Shown here piece by piece: positions 58,015 to 62,725 of a stretch of DNA of 64,000 bases. Source of the stretch: an uncultured Methylophilaceae bacterium (lineage in GTDB: Bacteria > Pseudomonadota > Gammaproteobacteria > Burkholderiales > Methylophilaceae); assembly GCA_903863255.1 (NCBI GenBank), contig CAIPBJ010000002.1:1-64000 (forward strand). The letters run 5' to 3'. Position 1 is the stretch's first letter; each line of letters begins with the position of its first letter. A model generated the notes under the pieces. That model was not told the DNA's origin, did no database searches, and saw only the letters and a program-made list of their open reading frames with translations. The position numbers and the translations under genes were made by a program.

Positions 58015-58578
58015 TCAGGCCTGAATCAGTTGGCCACTTTTTAGTTTTACTTGTTCGCCAACTTGATGAGTTGGCGGATAGTATTGCGTGATCGTTCTGT
58101 AATTCCCATTTTTCATAAGAACATTAATGACGTAAGCTGTTGTAGCACTCATGTCTTTACCATCACTTCCATTTATCCCAAAGGCAGCCATCAGGAAGTT
58201 TCTATTTTTATTATGAAAACTGTCTAAACTTGCCGGTTCTGCGTCAAGTGTTACTTTTTTGATGGAAATAATCTGACCACAGTTATTACAGGCACCGTGG
58301 TTGTTTTTTTTGATTGGATCTTCATTTCCAAACGTCGCTGAATCTTCTTCACCTCGCAAAGTCGGCTTGTCGATGAAGTTGCCTGTTGATTGATCTGGAA
58401 TGTTTTGCATCACATTTTGTTGATCATAGTGTTCCGAGTTAGTGGTAGGAATTAAACCAGTTATCGCCGCGCTTCCTATAATGCTGAAAATAGTTAAACC
58501 GGTAGCAGCGATTAAAACCATAGGGTGCGTTTTTCTAGTTTGAGCGGAACTTGAATGGGGATTGAGTTGAGGTGCCAT
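58015..58578 (-). CDS. Envelope protein with SlyB/glycine-zipper-type C-terminal domain
   Basis: The 187-residue protein has an N-terminal membrane helix at about residues 20-42 (MVLIAATGLTIFSIIGSAAI) and a low-complexity linker. It then has ACNNCGQIISIKKV near residue 97 and a final YVINVLMKNGNYRTITQ domain ending VGEQVKLKSGQLI, a layout I know from glycine-zipper outer-membrane proteins, where CxxCG precedes the zipper. The glycine zipper itself is missing. It starts 3 bases after the EF-hand/BON gene and so is in the GlrR-linked operon. Confidence 0.55.
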   Translation of the reverse strand: MAPQLNPHSSSAQTRKTHPMVLIAATGLTIFSIIGSAAITGLIPTTNSEHYDQQNVMQNIPDQSTGNFIDKPTLRGEEDSATFGNEDPIKKNNHGACNNCGQIISIKKVTLDAEPASLDSFHNKNRNFLMAAFGINGSDGKDMSATTAYVINVLMKNGNYRTITQYYPPTHQVGEQVKLKSGQLIQA

Positions 58579-58581
58579 CTG

Positions 58582-59115
58582 TTATCCTTTTACAACCAAT
58601 GCGTTTTTGATGGATTGAACATCAGAGAACGTTGAGGTGATCTCGAGTGCAAGTCGTGATTGATCTTCCGATTCTACAAAACCACTAAGTATGACAAGGC
58701 CTCGATGAGTCTCAACACTAATTTCCAAGGCTTCAATACCAATTTCCCTGATTAACTCTGTTTTTACTTTCGCTGTTAACAGGCTGTCATTTAAGACACC
58801 TAATAAGTTATTTTGATCATCTTTATTTTTAAACTTATAGTATTCATCATAAGTTAGAAAACCGTTATTATCCGTATCAGCAAGGGTAAAGTTCTTGTTT
58901 AGTTGAGCATCAACCTCGGACTCCGATCTTGAAATCTTTTTGTCTTGATTGGAATCGAGTTTATTGAATTGTATTTCCAGGGGAGAGTTTTCAATGGTAT
59001 CTTGCTCACCAAACGCGACCGCGTGAATACTTAGACAGATAACCGTTACTGCAAAGAATGTGACCATTCCGTGTTTTTGTAAAAAAGTTTCTTCTCTAAA
59101 AAAATTCTTTTTCAT
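58582..59115 (-). CDS. Periplasmic EF-hand plus BON-domain protein
   Basis: A membrane or signal segment at about residues 17-36 (ending HAVAFG) is followed by two EF-hand loops, DSNQDKKISRSE at 54-65 and DTDNNGFLTYDE at 80-91, and a BON domain at about 110-177 (LLTAKVKTELIREIGI; GLVILSGFVESEDQ). BON domains occur in OsmY-type periplasmic stress proteins. The EF/BON fusion suggests calcium-linked envelope stress protection (inference). It is preceded by a sigma-54 promoter and GlrR-type sites. Confidence 0.8.
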   Translation of the reverse strand: MKKNFFREETFLQKHGMVTFFAVTVICLSIHAVAFGEQDTIENSPLEIQFNKLDSNQDKKISRSESEVDAQLNKNFTLADTDNNGFLTYDEYYKFKNKDDQNNLLGVLNDSLLTAKVKTELIREIGIEALEISVETHRGLVILSGFVESEDQSRLALEITSTFSDVQSIKNALVVKG

Positions 59116-59150
59116 TTTGACCTCACCTGATTAATACTCACTACTATTAC

Positions 59151-59166
59151 AGCAAGAGGTGTGCCA
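59151..59166 (-). promoter_or_regulatory. Sigma-54 promoter of the EF-hand/BON operon
   Basis: On the minus strand the sequence reads TGGCAC-A-CCTC-TTGC-T, a full match to the RpoN consensus TGGCACR-N4-TTGCW, with the GG and GC spaced at -24 and -12. Transcription would start near 59140, about 25 bases before the ATG at 59115. GlrR, a sigma-54 activator, is encoded directly upstream. Confidence 0.88.
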
Positions 59167-59230
59167 CTATAAAAAATCTATAAAAATCATATAGATATGG
59201 AGATTTAGTTAAGAGGTGGGGTTCCACAAG

Positions 59231-59248
59231 TGTCTCCAAATAGAGACG
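59231..59248. promoter_or_regulatory. GlrR-type binding site, promoter-proximal
   Basis: TGTC at 59231-59234 and GACG at 59245-59248 flank 10 bases (TCCAAATAGA). E. coli GlrR sites at glmY have the form TGTC-N10-GACA; this one has a single mismatch. It lies about 100 bases upstream of the predicted start of transcription, a normal enhancer distance. Confidence 0.75.
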
Positions 59249-59295
59249 CAATTCTAGTCGTTCGAGATAACTATATGAAAAATAAGGATAATGTA

Positions 59296-59313
59296 TGTCT
59301 CCAAATGAAGACG
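59296..59313. promoter_or_regulatory. GlrR-type binding site, promoter-distal
   Basis: TGTC at 59296-59299 and GACG at 59310-59313 flank TCCAAATGAA. The first 11 bases (TGTCTCCAAAT) are identical to the other site. The two centres are 65 bases apart, close to six helical turns. It abuts the glrR stop codon. Confidence 0.75.
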
Positions 59314-60708
59314 TCAGGTGGCAGGGTTGTCGTCTTTGAATAACGCGGGTGTCAATTGGTGACGTTGAAGGAGTTTGTAAAACTCGGTACGATTTCTCTG
59401 TGCCAGTCTTGATGCCTGAGTCACGCTTCCGTTGGTCGCTTTTAATAGTTTTATCAGGTAATCACGTTCAAAGTCTTTTCTGGCAGTTTCAAAAGGAATG
59501 ATTCCTCCAATATCATCTTGTAAGGCTTTTTGGACAAGATAAGCCGGTACAAGACTGGTAGTTGAGAGCACTATAGTCTGTTCAACGATGTTTTGTAACT
59601 GCCTGACATTGCCAGGCCAAGGTGCTGATATCAGCAATTCAAGCGCATCAGGGGCAAATCCATTAATCCTTTTATTGTACTTTTTGCTAAGACCAAGTAA
59701 AAAACTGTTTGCCAGCAACTGGATGTCTTCTCGTCGATTCGCTAAGGAAGGTATTTCGAGACCAACTACATTTATTCTGTAATACAAGTCTTCTCTAAAA
59801 CGGCCAGATTTCATCTCAGAAGCCAGATTACGGTGGGTCGCTGATATGACTCTTACATCAATTGGAATACTGGAATTACTCCCAACTGGTCTGATTTCTC
59901 GCTCTTGAAGTGCTCTTAACAATTTAACCTGAAGGGCTAAAGGCATATCTCCGATTTCATCAAGAAAAATTGTCCCTCCTTGAGCACTCTGAAACAATCC
60001 CTTATGGTCTCTTATGGCACCTGTAAACGACCCTTTGCTGTGACCAAATAGTTCGGATTCTAGAAGCGCTTCTGGAATGGCGCCGCAATTTATAGCAATA
60101 AAGGGTTTGTTTTGTCTTGGGCTTGCTTTATGAATTGCCTTTGCTAACAATTCCTTACCCGATCCACTTTCACCTTGAATGAATACACTGGCATCTGAAA
60201 TAGCCATTAATTTTGCTTGGCCTAGCAAATTTTCCATTTGTGGACTGCGAGTAATAATGTCTTCACGCCAAGATTCGTTCTCTAACGAGTTATCTATTTT
60301 ATTTAATGGATTCCCTGCACCAAGCCTAATCGCTGCTTCGACCTGTTGAAGTAGGGATTTGCTGTCAAAGGGTTTTGTTAAGAAACCGAAAACACCTCGC
60401 TGAGTGGCTTCGACGGCCTCTGGAATGGACCCATGAGCGGTAAGCATGATGACTGGCAGGGCTGGGTCATTTTTATGGATAGCATCAAATAATTGCATGC
60501 CATCCATCTTTGGCATTCTCAAGTCACAAATTACCAATGATGGGCGGTTAATGGACAGTTGAGCCAGGGCTTCTTCCCCGCATCCTGCACTGCTAATGAG
60601 ATAACCTGCTGAGCTTAGGCGTATCCCAAGTAATTTAAGTATGTCTGGATCATCGTCAACAATTAAAATCCTTGATGTTGAAGTTTGGCGAATCGCATTA
60701 TCAGTCAT
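59314..60708 (-). CDS. glrR: Sigma-54-dependent response regulator GlrR (QseF)
   Basis: The 464-residue protein has a receiver domain with acidic pair VDDD, phospho-acceptor D62 in VICDLRMPKMDG, an AAA+ domain with Walker A GESGSGKELLAKAIH near 179, the sigma-54 contact loop in GSFTGAIRD near 231, Walker B GGTIFLDEIGDMP near 250, and a Fis-type helix-turn-helix at the end (GSVTQASRLAQRNRTEFYKL). In enterobacteria GlrR activates glmY and rpoE with sigma-54. It overlaps the qseG-like gene by 4 bases. Confidence 0.93.
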   Translation of the reverse strand: MTDNAIRQTSTSRILIVDDDPDILKLLGIRLSSAGYLISSAGCGEEALAQLSINRPSLVICDLRMPKMDGMQLFDAIHKNDPALPVIMLTAHGSIPEAVEATQRGVFGFLTKPFDSKSLLQQVEAAIRLGAGNPLNKIDNSLENESWREDIITRSPQMENLLGQAKLMAISDASVFIQGESGSGKELLAKAIHKASPRQNKPFIAINCGAIPEALLESELFGHSKGSFTGAIRDHKGLFQSAQGGTIFLDEIGDMPLALQVKLLRALQEREIRPVGSNSSIPIDVRVISATHRNLASEMKSGRFREDLYYRINVVGLEIPSLANRREDIQLLANSFLLGLSKKYNKRINGFAPDALELLISAPWPGNVRQLQNIVEQTIVLSTTSLVPAYLVQKALQDDIGGIIPFETARKDFERDYLIKLLKATNGSVTQASRLAQRNRTEFYKLLQRHQLTPALFKDDNPAT

Positions 60709-61289
60709 TTATGAATTCCACGATCTACCATGTTTTTCTCAATTTCTTTCAGGTCATCCAATTTTTGCTGCAGGGCATTTGCCCTTTGCTGAGCCTCATT
60801 GACCTTGACTTGAAGCGTTTCCAATTTCGAACTATAACCGTCAGCTCGTTTTTGCTCATCGCGCGATTTTTGGAGATATCGATTTGTGTCCGATATATAA
60901 TCCCTGACGATTGTTGCTAACATCCTGTATTCATTATCAATTGATTTTTCTTTAAGTAAATCTTCCAAAAGGACTTGTGCTTTTATAGGATCGCGCACCC
61001 TACTTTCAGGCAATCCATACAATAGAGCGATTTTCATACGAATGTCGATAGCCTGGGTGTTCCTTGATAGAGACTGGGTCAGATCGTTCAGTTCCTTTTT
61101 TTGTTGATCAACGGATTCATTCGTAATGTCATTTGAGAACTCTAGAATGGATAAAGGTTTTTGCTGAACTATTTCAACTGGATGCACATCAACATTTTTT
61201 TGAGGAGTGTTCATTGCACAAGAAGTTAGTGCAAGAATAACGAATGAGGCAAGAAATAGGGGTGTCCAATTGAGTTTGAGTCGGGTCAT
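60705..61289 (-). CDS. QseG-like lipoprotein
   Basis: The lipoprotein signal ends in ILALTSCAMN (lipidated Cys at about residue 24). A helical region follows and a coiled coil lies at about residues 145-192 (LETLQVKVNEAQQRANALQQ). The protein sits between glrK and glrR, overlapping both by 4 bases, exactly as qseG does in enterobacteria, where it contacts the kinase. The assignment rests on position and layout; sequence identity is not visible by eye. Confidence 0.75.
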   Translation of the reverse strand: MTRLKLNWTPLFLASFVILALTSCAMNTPQKNVDVHPVEIVQQKPLSILEFSNDITNESVDQQKKELNDLTQSLSRNTQAIDIRMKIALLYGLPESRVRDPIKAQVLLEDLLKEKSIDNEYRMLATIVRDYISDTNRYLQKSRDEQKRADGYSSKLETLQVKVNEAQQRANALQQKLDDLKEIEKNMVDRGIHK

Positions 61290-62725
61290 AGATTTATCAT
61301 CTCATTTTGATGCACATAAGGCAATCTTACTCGAAAACGGGCTCCGAGCTCCGCTGGAATCAGAACAATGTCTCCACCGTGAGCATCCACATATTCTTTG
61401 GCTATTGAAAGCCCAAGTCCACTGCCACTGACCAAGCTCTCGTATACACCATTGCCCTTGTAAAATGGGTCAAACAAACGGGCCTTATCAGACATCATTA
61501 CTCCAGGTCCATTATCGTGAACTTCTATTACGGCTCTTTCGCTCATCGGATAAATCAGCAACCTTATAATACCTTTTTGTGAAGTGTATTTAACGGCATT
61601 GGATACTAGGTTATCAAGCACTGTATATATCTTATCTTTATCGCATTCAATTTCAATATTATGAAAATCTGTTTGAATCTGTATATTTTTATTATCAATG
61701 GATAGGGCATAGCTGTTTACAACGCTTTGTAATAGGTCTGTAAGCGACACATTTGAATAGATTAGCTCGGGTTGTTTAAATTGGACGGCTGTAAAATGGA
61801 GGAGATTCTCGATCATTTTTTGAAGCCGAATACTGCTTTCACGTAATATGAGGGTAATTTCGCGTTGTTGAGCGGATAGCGATCCAGCGACCTCATCGCT
61901 AAGAAGTTCGCTTGCTTCCCGAATCGTGGTCAAAGGTGTTTTTAATTCATGAGAAACATGTCTCAGGAATCGTTGTTTCTCATGTTCTACCGCCTGAAGT
62001 TGAGACCTTAACCAATCGAGTCGTTCACCTAGGATTCTTAAATCACTTGGCCCATCGATGTTTATAGGGTCTTCATAGTGCCCCTCTCCCAGATGCTTGA
62101 TCGCGGCATCCATTCTTCGAATAGGTTGGGCAACTAGATATGTGATTACTCCTGCGACCAGTAGCCCTACTGGCAGCAGAGTCAGAGTCTGCCAGAATAA
62201 CATGTGTTGGGTTCTTTCGGCAGTTTGAGCCAGCGATGCGGACTCGCGGTCAATGAGCAAATTATTTTCGCTAAGAATTTTCTGCGATTCTTTGGACATT
62301 TTAATAAATCGATTAATTATTGTGTCTGGGAGAATACTTTCAATACTCAGTGATTTGATGTCATGGTAGATGGAGATTTCATCGTTATTGATACTTTCAA
62401 GCGAACTTCTTTGATCGTTGCTTAATGGTAAATTACCAAGGTCCTGAATCGCCCGACTGAATTTATTATGAGCAATTTCATAACTATCCAGAAAAACCGA
62501 GTCGTGTAATACGAAGTATTGCCTGGCACTTCTTTCCATTACATTTAATTGTTCAACTAAAACACGACTTGATCTGGTTGCCTGAACTGCTTGTGCCACT
62601 GTATTTCGGCTTTGCTCTGCTAACTTGTCAACGTATAAAGCAGCATTTCCAAAAGCAAATAGAAGTGGAAGCATTGCCAAAGCAAAGCCAATCAGAAGCA
62701 GTTTAAGAAATGATTTAGGATACAT
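61286..62725 (-). CDS. glrK: Sensor histidine kinase GlrK (QseE)
   Basis: The 479-residue kinase has a first membrane helix at about residues 8-28, a helical periplasmic sensor region, a second helix at about 178-199 (LTLLPVGLLVAGVITYLVA), a HAMP domain, the phosphorylated H259 in FLRHVSHELKTPLTTIREA, and an ATPase domain with the N box DNLVSNAVKYTSQKG near 365, DNGPGV near 405 and GSGLGLSIAKEYV near 430. It pairs with GlrR. The divergent folA starts 62 bases away. Confidence 0.93.
   Translation of the reverse strand: MYPKSFLKLLLIGFALAMLPLLFAFGNAALYVDKLAEQSRNTVAQAVQATRSSRVLVEQLNVMERSARQYFVLHDSVFLDSYEIAHNKFSRAIQDLGNLPLSNDQRSSLESINNDEISIYHDIKSLSIESILPDTIINRFIKMSKESQKILSENNLLIDRESASLAQTAERTQHMLFWQTLTLLPVGLLVAGVITYLVAQPIRRMDAAIKHLGEGHYEDPINIDGPSDLRILGERLDWLRSQLQAVEHEKQRFLRHVSHELKTPLTTIREASELLSDEVAGSLSAQQREITLILRESSIRLQKMIENLLHFTAVQFKQPELIYSNVSLTDLLQSVVNSYALSIDNKNIQIQTDFHNIEIECDKDKIYTVLDNLVSNAVKYTSQKGIIRLLIYPMSERAVIEVHDNGPGVMMSDKARLFDPFYKGNGVYESLVSGSGLGLSIAKEYVDAHGGDIVLIPAELGARFRVRLPYVHQNEMINL

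Follow-up and report, generated by a model that had tools for sequence, protein, structure and literature searches.

What does the response regulator GlrR switch on outside the enterobacteria? In the window, the whole stretch of 64,000 nucleotides analysed here, the genes of a GlrK-QseG-GlrR system are followed on the minus strand, after a gap of 198 bases, by an EF-hand/BON gene and a second envelope-type gene. An earlier note on this DNA had read the gap as a sigma-54 promoter under GlrR control, and had proposed that envelope proteins are the ancestral targets of the system. In E. coli the system is a stress sensor that activates a small RNA. Four papers (PMC6075780, PMC8745638, PMC4987338, PMC3844500) deal with GlrKR (QseEF) in enterobacteria, in connection with glmY, glmZ, rpoE and virulence; in their accessible text the signal of the system is said not to be known (PMC4987338), and glmY and glmZ are the GlrR targets named (PMC4987338, PMC3844500); the GlrR of PMC1084347, as far as its accessible text goes, is a different protein, of the LEE. 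As judged from sequence comparison, positions 59115-59316 very probably serve as enhancer and promoter for an envelope operon under GlrK-QseG-GlrR control, on a plan that is probably older than its use for glmY.

The glrK-qseG-glrR locus and its control region

Features of the locus, listed in the order of minus-strand transcription
Feature	Position	Strand	Remarks
glrK (qseE), sensor histidine kinase	61286..62725	-	HisKA, HATPase_c and HAMP (Pfam); adjoins glrR in relatives
qseG-like lipoprotein gene	60705..61289	-	lipobox LTSC by eye
glrR (qseF), response regulator with receiver, sigma-54 AAA+ and HTH	59314..60708	-	NCBIfam, tree
UAS1, distal GlrR-type site	59296..59313	-	abuts the glrR stop codon
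IHF-like position between UAS1 and UAS2, TTTTCATATAGTTA	59268..59281	-	two mismatches; invariant TCA and T columns
UAS2, proximal GlrR-type site	59231..59248	-	centre about -99; UAS1 65 bp away
IHF-like position between UAS2 and promoter, AATCATATAGATA	59186..59198	+	two mismatches; invariant TA and TG columns
sigma-54 -24/-12 promoter, TGGCACACCTCTTGCT	59151..59166	-	full match to TGGCACNNNNNTTGCW
EF-hand/BON gene	58582..59115	-	Pfam EF-hand and C-terminal BON
second gene of presumed operon	58015..58578	-	membrane-anchored protein, CxxCG motif; aligns with glycine-zipper/SlyB-like relatives

The naming of GlrR rests on a tree and on gene order, since NF011695 (GlrR), the top NCBIfam match of 112 families with 616 bits, stays under its curated equivalog cut-off of 763 bits. 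In the tree the protein falls into the GlrR clade beside Methylophilaceae bacterium UBA7525, its nearest named relative, and the gene order is glrK-qseG-glrR. The receiver and sigma-54 AAA+ domains were found by Pfam; the Fis-type HTH, which gave no Pfam match, was assigned from an alignment with enterobacterial GlrR, with which the window protein has the C-terminal NRTEFYKLL region in common. The product of the qseG-like gene matched no Pfam or NCBIfam family, and tblastn recovered the gene in 18 of the 20 glrR loci of the family, L015 and L023 being those from which it is absent.

The EF-hand and BON domains that had been read into the first downstream gene are borne out by Pfam, a signal-peptide-like N-terminus and two EF-hand loops being recognizable by eye. 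Its BON part was matched by OsmY (chain 8rjx) and YraP (chain 7a2d), with which the BON domain is common, whereas the window protein adds the EF-hand loops and sits behind a sigma-54 promoter. The description of the second protein as SlyB-like holds in part: its relatedness by alignment stands, the glycine zipper does not. The protein gave no Pfam or NCBIfam match, and among the relatives with which it aligns only L025 has a Pfam glycine-zipper 2TM match. In the alignment it is devoid of the zipper, and an N-terminal membrane stretch replaces the lipobox (by eye); of the SlyB features, it shows neither the glycine-zipper 2TM domain nor the lipoprotein anchor. Its gene ends ahead of an opposite-strand gene, which we take to be thyA.

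Read in the direction of transcription, from 59313 down to 59151, the gap holds UAS1, an IHF-like position, UAS2, a second IHF-like position and the -24/-12 element. The full RpoN consensus announced in the earlier note, TGGCAC-N5-TTGC, is present exactly, as are the two TGTC-N10-GACG sites, TGTCTCCAAATAGAGACG (59231-59248) and TGTCTCCAAATGAAGACG (59296-59313) on the plus strand, which have TGTCTCCAAAT in common. Each lies one letter (GACG against GACA) from the full palindrome TGTC-N10-GACA, which that note gave as the known form of the GlrR site, in agreement with the consensus TGTCN10GACA in the accessible text of PMC8745638 and PMC4987338; an alternative consensus, TGTN12ACA, with help from IHF, is given in that of PMC6075780. 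From UAS2 to the -24/-12 element there are 82 bases, start to start. By the usual sigma-54 numbering transcription should begin at about 59140, which places the centre of UAS1 near -164, and a Shine-Dalgarno-like GAGG (59124-59121) precedes the ATG at 59115 (by eye). Single sites of the form YGTC-N10-GACR are not rare in the window (3 found against 1.64 expected), an exact -24/-12 element is (1 against 0.08), and promoter and site together occur once in the 2.43-Mb draft genome (G000) to which the window belongs, the reversed control pattern nowhere.

Both IHF-like positions are absent from the earlier note, and relatives often carry near-consensus IHF sites there. Scored against the IHF consensus, the window positions have two mismatches each and do no better than shuffled spacers, so that IHF in the window is a guess from position. 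A set of 55 promoters was scored, with the window and two glmY promoters included and the near-duplicates L008 and L013 removed. An IHF-like site with at most one mismatch occurs in minus orientation between UAS2 and -24 in 31 of them against 3.6 expected from base shuffles, and in plus orientation between UAS1 and UAS2 in 22 against 2.3, counts that are not independent because other related promoters stay in the set. In the opposite orientations there are 9 each (3.7 and 2.2 expected, respectively). IHF assists the activation of glmY by QseF according to the accessible text of PMC6075780, and the glmY promoter of Proteus is given two putative IHF and three QseF sites in that of PMC8745638.

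The mechanism that we infer from sequence, spacing, conservation and target types would run as follows. Phosphorylated GlrR would bind both palindromes, whose distance of 65 bp amounts to about six helical turns, IHF would bend the DNA between them and below them, and the ATPase of GlrR would open the sigma-54 polymerase waiting at 59151-59166. The predicted transcript from about 59140 would encode an EF-hand/BON protein of the periplasm and a membrane protein resembling SlyB. Near glrR, many Beta- and Gammaproteobacteria have this enhancer plan too, ahead of EF-hand, BON, glycine-zipper, MdoG or bactofilin genes.

Conservation, spread and target genes

Among 37 genomes of the Methylophilaceae searched, a GlrR ortholog (at least 590 bits) was found in 19, which together with the named locus L031 gave 20 loci (L001-L018, L023, L031). 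A pair of sites 60-70 bp apart, with at most one mismatch per site, and a -24/-12 element with at most two mismatches lie downstream of glrR in 19 of the 20, L023 being the sole exception, and in 16 under a narrower rule, which is the looser of the two applied to the class sample below; the search of relatives suggested in the earlier note thus found site pair and promoter beside glrR almost throughout the family. The 19 include L011, with its promoter 226 bases from UAS2, and L016 (G005), where a second glrR-like gene lies in tandem and is itself followed by the enhancer and an EF-hand-type gene. In an alignment of 14 upstream regions 25 columns are invariant, and all of them fall into UAS1, the first IHF-like position (TCA...T), UAS2, the second IHF-like position (TA...TG) and the -24/-12 element (TGGCA...GC). 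By sequence reading, not in all cases by Pfam, 16 of the 19 loci have in first place an EF-hand-type gene, which may or may not include BON; L005 and L006 have a SlyB-like gene there, and L015 a glycine-zipper gene followed by a SlyB-like one. Control of the adjacent EF-hand/BON operon by GlrR, as earlier proposed, is thus supported by a pair, a spacing and a -24/-12 element that are conserved beside glrR; on this comparison the predicted circuit is strongly supported, and the evolutionary reading is likely.

Beyond the family, 83 of 321 genomes of a class-wide sample (the genome of the window counted) have a GlrR ortholog at 1e-120, in 87 places, and the stretches around 80 of these were examined, the window's own and the six weakest being left out. 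At 34 of the 80 loci a strict promoter has one or more sites within 260 bases (four control palindromes: 2, 3, 0, 1), and at 17 it has two or more (each of the four controls: 0). Under a looser rule, which accepts a pair with one mismatch in all plus a loose promoter, or a perfect site plus a strict promoter, the count is 39 of 80 (five control palindromes: 1, 5, 1, 10, 2), or 31 with at least two sites (controls 1, 5, 0, 10, 1). Three loci missed by these rules, L144, L150 and L164, have weaker sets by eye. In a wider set of 121 loci (L019-L030, L032-L060 and L143-L222, with the family member L023 among them and some cut short or distant paralogues), a 60-70 bp pair is present at 57 and in the DNA examined absent from 64, the five control palindromes giving 0, 13, 1, 21 and 5. 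The looser counts are noisy because the GC-rich control palindrome c4 reached 10 of the 80 and 21 of the 121 loci. As to spacing, 59 of 153 pairs are 62-69 bp apart (controls 0/29, 11/351, 1/34, 23/352, 3/105), and the commonest spacings, 66, 65 and 67 bp, are shown by no control. Of the 29 named loci L032-L060, 11 have a strict promoter with sites, two of which are the enterobacterial L048 and L058. A chance origin of the region was rejected by the whole-genome and class-wide controls.

Among 122 loci there are 23 ORFs with two EF-hand loops, of which 20 are preceded by a GlrR-type palindrome at most 450 bases upstream; for other ORFs the count is 448 of 4030 (11.1%), a figure that is not the rate for real gene starts because the other ORFs include spurious frames; five control palindromes precede 2 to 5 of the 23 EF-hand ORFs and 6.6 to 22.7% of the others. 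A Pfam survey of 30 hand-picked first-gene candidates gave EF-hand targets in L151, L152, L155, L176, L180, L190, L194, L196 and L216, with L175, L206 and L211 under the cut-off (L175 with a clear BON domain, like the window), and BON targets in L024, L033, L037, L047, L049 and L222. Bactofilin genes divergent from glrK are preceded by GlrR-type sites and a sigma-54 element in L033, L043 and L055, MdoG was matched in L041 and L159, a glycine zipper in L025, a YgaP-like membrane domain in L168, fibronectin-type repeats in L042 and a thioesterase in L199; the candidates of L020 and L161 and one gene of L165 had no Pfam match. The promoters of L148, L153, L161, L171, L179 and L199 stand before genes not clearly of the envelope.

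In five of these loci (L148, L153, L171, L179, L199) the sites and sigma-54 elements lie some hundred bases ahead of a thioesterase gene, for which there is a Pfam basis in L199 only. We take this thioesterase, that of L199 included, to be YbgC-like and its loci to be presumably a tol-pal context; an unrecognised product may lie between promoter and thioesterase gene.

The enhancer plan, sigma-54 control and GlrR itself are already known. The enterobacterial glmY/glmZ promoters, which use GlrR/QseF, sigma-54 and IHF, are like the window in their TGTC-N10-GACA sites, the -24/-12 element, the glrKR neighbourhood and a site pair of the same kind, spaced 63 bp at L048, L054 and L058. They differ in that glmY is an sRNA gene lying before glrK and can have as many as three sites, whereas in the window there are two sites, and a protein operon stands after glrR. 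The control of rpoE by QseF in E. coli likewise feeds GlrR into envelope homeostasis, according to the accessible text of PMC6075780, but acts through sigma-E, whereas the predicted window circuit would reach envelope genes directly. Sigma-54 as a controller of the bacterial exterior is the general theme of Francke 2011 (PMC3162934), in whose accessible text QseF-like regulators and glmY are listed, and OsmY, SlyB and the BON domain are not mentioned. Searches of openly licensed PMC papers brought up neither the target set nor the product swap discussed below; they returned no paper on GlrR targets of EF-hand/BON type and none joining EF-hand to QseF. The predicted EF-hand/BON targets would offer a clean readout for GlrKR, and give it a testable role in non-enteric bacteria, in the envelope and possibly in calcium or osmotic balance.

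Age of the envelope targets and the place of glmY

Run on 200 genomes sampled across the phylum, with filters that lose weak matches, the Rfam model RF00128, which recovers the E. coli positive control, detected GlmY in 4, all belonging to one family. GlmY is present in the enterobacterial loci L048, L054 and L058; neither the 64-kb window nor its own genome gave a match. In a GlrR tree (FastTree, rooted on long paralogue branches; L016, too short, omitted) these three loci form one clade (support 100), which is nested in a group of 12 rows (support 99) with Halomonadaceae, Neptuniibacter, Arsukibacterium and L053, the inner order of which is uncertain. EF-hand labels appear on early-branching rows and under many family codes, the EF group requiring 13 changes on the tree. 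In reading this figure one should recall that the labels were set partly by eye, that 'none' stands for L045, L056, L162 and L177 despite an EF-hand ORF beside a palindrome, and that it also stands for L022, L028, L034, L042, L161 and L168 despite sites and promoter, with a target of another or unassigned kind.

The position that glmY occupies in enterobacteria is filled differently in the neighbouring rows. In Neptuniibacter (L045, L056) EF-hand genes identified by Pfam lie there, ahead of glrK; L056 has one palindrome 185 bases upstream of its EF-hand gene, L045 imperfect sites only, together with TGGCACAACTCTTGTT found by eye, and neither has a counted pair. In Arsukibacterium a short ORF stands at this position, and Rfam had no match in L045, L056 or L057. 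With an EF-hand gene (Neptuniibacter) or an unrelated candidate RNA (Halomonadaceae) in the place of glmY, the promoter seems to have stayed while its product was exchanged; the pattern is the one expected of such a replacement, though no proof of the order of events. The use made of the system in E. coli looks like a newcomer because the control region precedes similar genes in many distant relatives. Envelope targets are therefore probably the older use of GlrR, and glmY a later product behind the same type of promoter, as far as sequence can tell.

On the other hand, the circuit may be real and yet not ancestral, the envelope targets having been gained separately in several lineages and glmY being perhaps equally old. 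We regard this as possible but rather unlikely. The scattered labels on the tree, the differing target families, the 64 of 121 loci that have no pair and the root on long paralogue branches all speak for it, and the earlier proposal, that envelope targets are ancestral and glmY later, is kept by the last two at the level of what we infer; that proposal draws its strength from the nested enterobacterial clade and from GlmY, which among the genomes searched was detected in enterobacterial ones only. Separate gains are likewise disfavoured by EF-hand targets in rows that branch early and in the group that surrounds the enterobacterial rows. In a fuller version of the envelope-first reading, the system would have served the envelope from early on and kept one enhancer plan, while the product behind it was exchanged: EF-hand/BON-type proteins would have come first, then small RNAs that differ between lineages, glmY in the enterobacteria and, in Halomonadaceae, a so far undescribed RNA whose hairpins resemble CsrA sites. 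We could accept or doubt this version with equal reason; it would be a case of a regulator that keeps its promoter while the product shifts from protein to RNA.

A candidate small RNA before glrK, ending in a conserved CTTCAGTTCCCTGCGTA and a terminator, was observed in L272-L301, L038, L040, L044, L051 and L200. Of 61 genomes in the G395 family, 39 contain the motif (reversed control 0); we take this family to be Halomonadaceae, since L200, a locus of it, and Kushneria L051 form a pair in the tree. At 34 of the 35 loci inspected (L200 and L292 being one place) the motif stands 158-284 bases ahead of glrK, with a GC hairpin and a T-run after it (by eye), and at 20 of the 35 a sigma-54 element and a GlrR-type site precede it by the scan rule. 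The RNA had no convincing Rfam match, and a search of openly licensed PMC papers returned nothing on Halomonas with GlmY and a small RNA. In 32 of these RNAs ANGGA is found 101 times (48 expected) and hairpin-loop GGA 53 times (9 expected), the total of GGA (205, with 227 expected) being not enriched; as a lead only, such hairpins recall CsrA-binding RNAs. A ViennaRNA consensus from a very gappy alignment, run without a control, gave 22 pairs, 14 of them with two-sided changes, and no structure is claimed past the terminator.

Ownership of the palindromes and related sites elsewhere

Could the palindromes belong to another activator? The genome of the window has 27 listed matches to the NtrC-type activator family, and a different member, for example the PEP-CTERM regulator PrsR, might own sites that lie by glrR through chance or joint control. 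Like pairs with a -24/-12 element do occur in other Methylophilaceae ahead of a WecG-type glycosyltransferase gene (L260; L252 and L270 alike by eye) and of a LuxR-type regulator gene (L261; L227, L269 and L271 alike by eye), targets that we take to be linked to exopolysaccharide. Among eight genomes PrsR exceeds its cut-off in G010 alone, and it could own the glycosyltransferase and regulator sites there; such targets are also found in G011, G013 and G078, each without PrsR above the cut-off. For the window this ownership is improbable: its genome has no PrsR above the curated cut-off, GlrR itself is the best match to the PrsR model, and the sites, which accompany glrR under many family codes, deviate by no more than one letter from the published GlrR consensus. 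A role of the palindromes at the RNA level, as hairpins or as a weak terminator behind glrR with an incidental sigma-54 element, is hardly credible, for although UAS1 directly follows the stop codon and both palindromes can pair, terminator prediction found no terminator-like site at them, like pairs also lie upstream of glrK and other genes, and the spacing, the IHF-like positions and the -24/-12 element are kept together.

With GlrR as the likely owner, one may ask where else such sites occur. The search for pairs in the own genome returned three places, namely the window, one on C114 and C44:17177-17257, with a reversed control of 2 per strand; the C114 place, which has no full palindrome pair, is probably chance. 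The C44 pair has a spacing of 65 bp, identical to that of the window, and belongs to a cluster (L224, 1500-2651) in which an EF-hand gene and a lipoprotein gene come before the pair, itself ahead of another gene. No GlrR-type site was found upstream of the EF-hand gene, and no promoter is visible at the pair beyond the lipoprotein gene. Ahead of the gene for the lipoprotein, which has a glycine-zipper match below the cut-off, lie a TGTC-N10-GACA site without mismatch and the sigma-54-like element TGGTCCATTTCTTGCG, which is three letters off the full pattern and was not recovered in the one-mismatch promoter scan. In other members of the family a site precedes MdoG (L259), and single sites lie ahead of glycine-zipper lipoproteins in L237 (match below cut-off) and L254.
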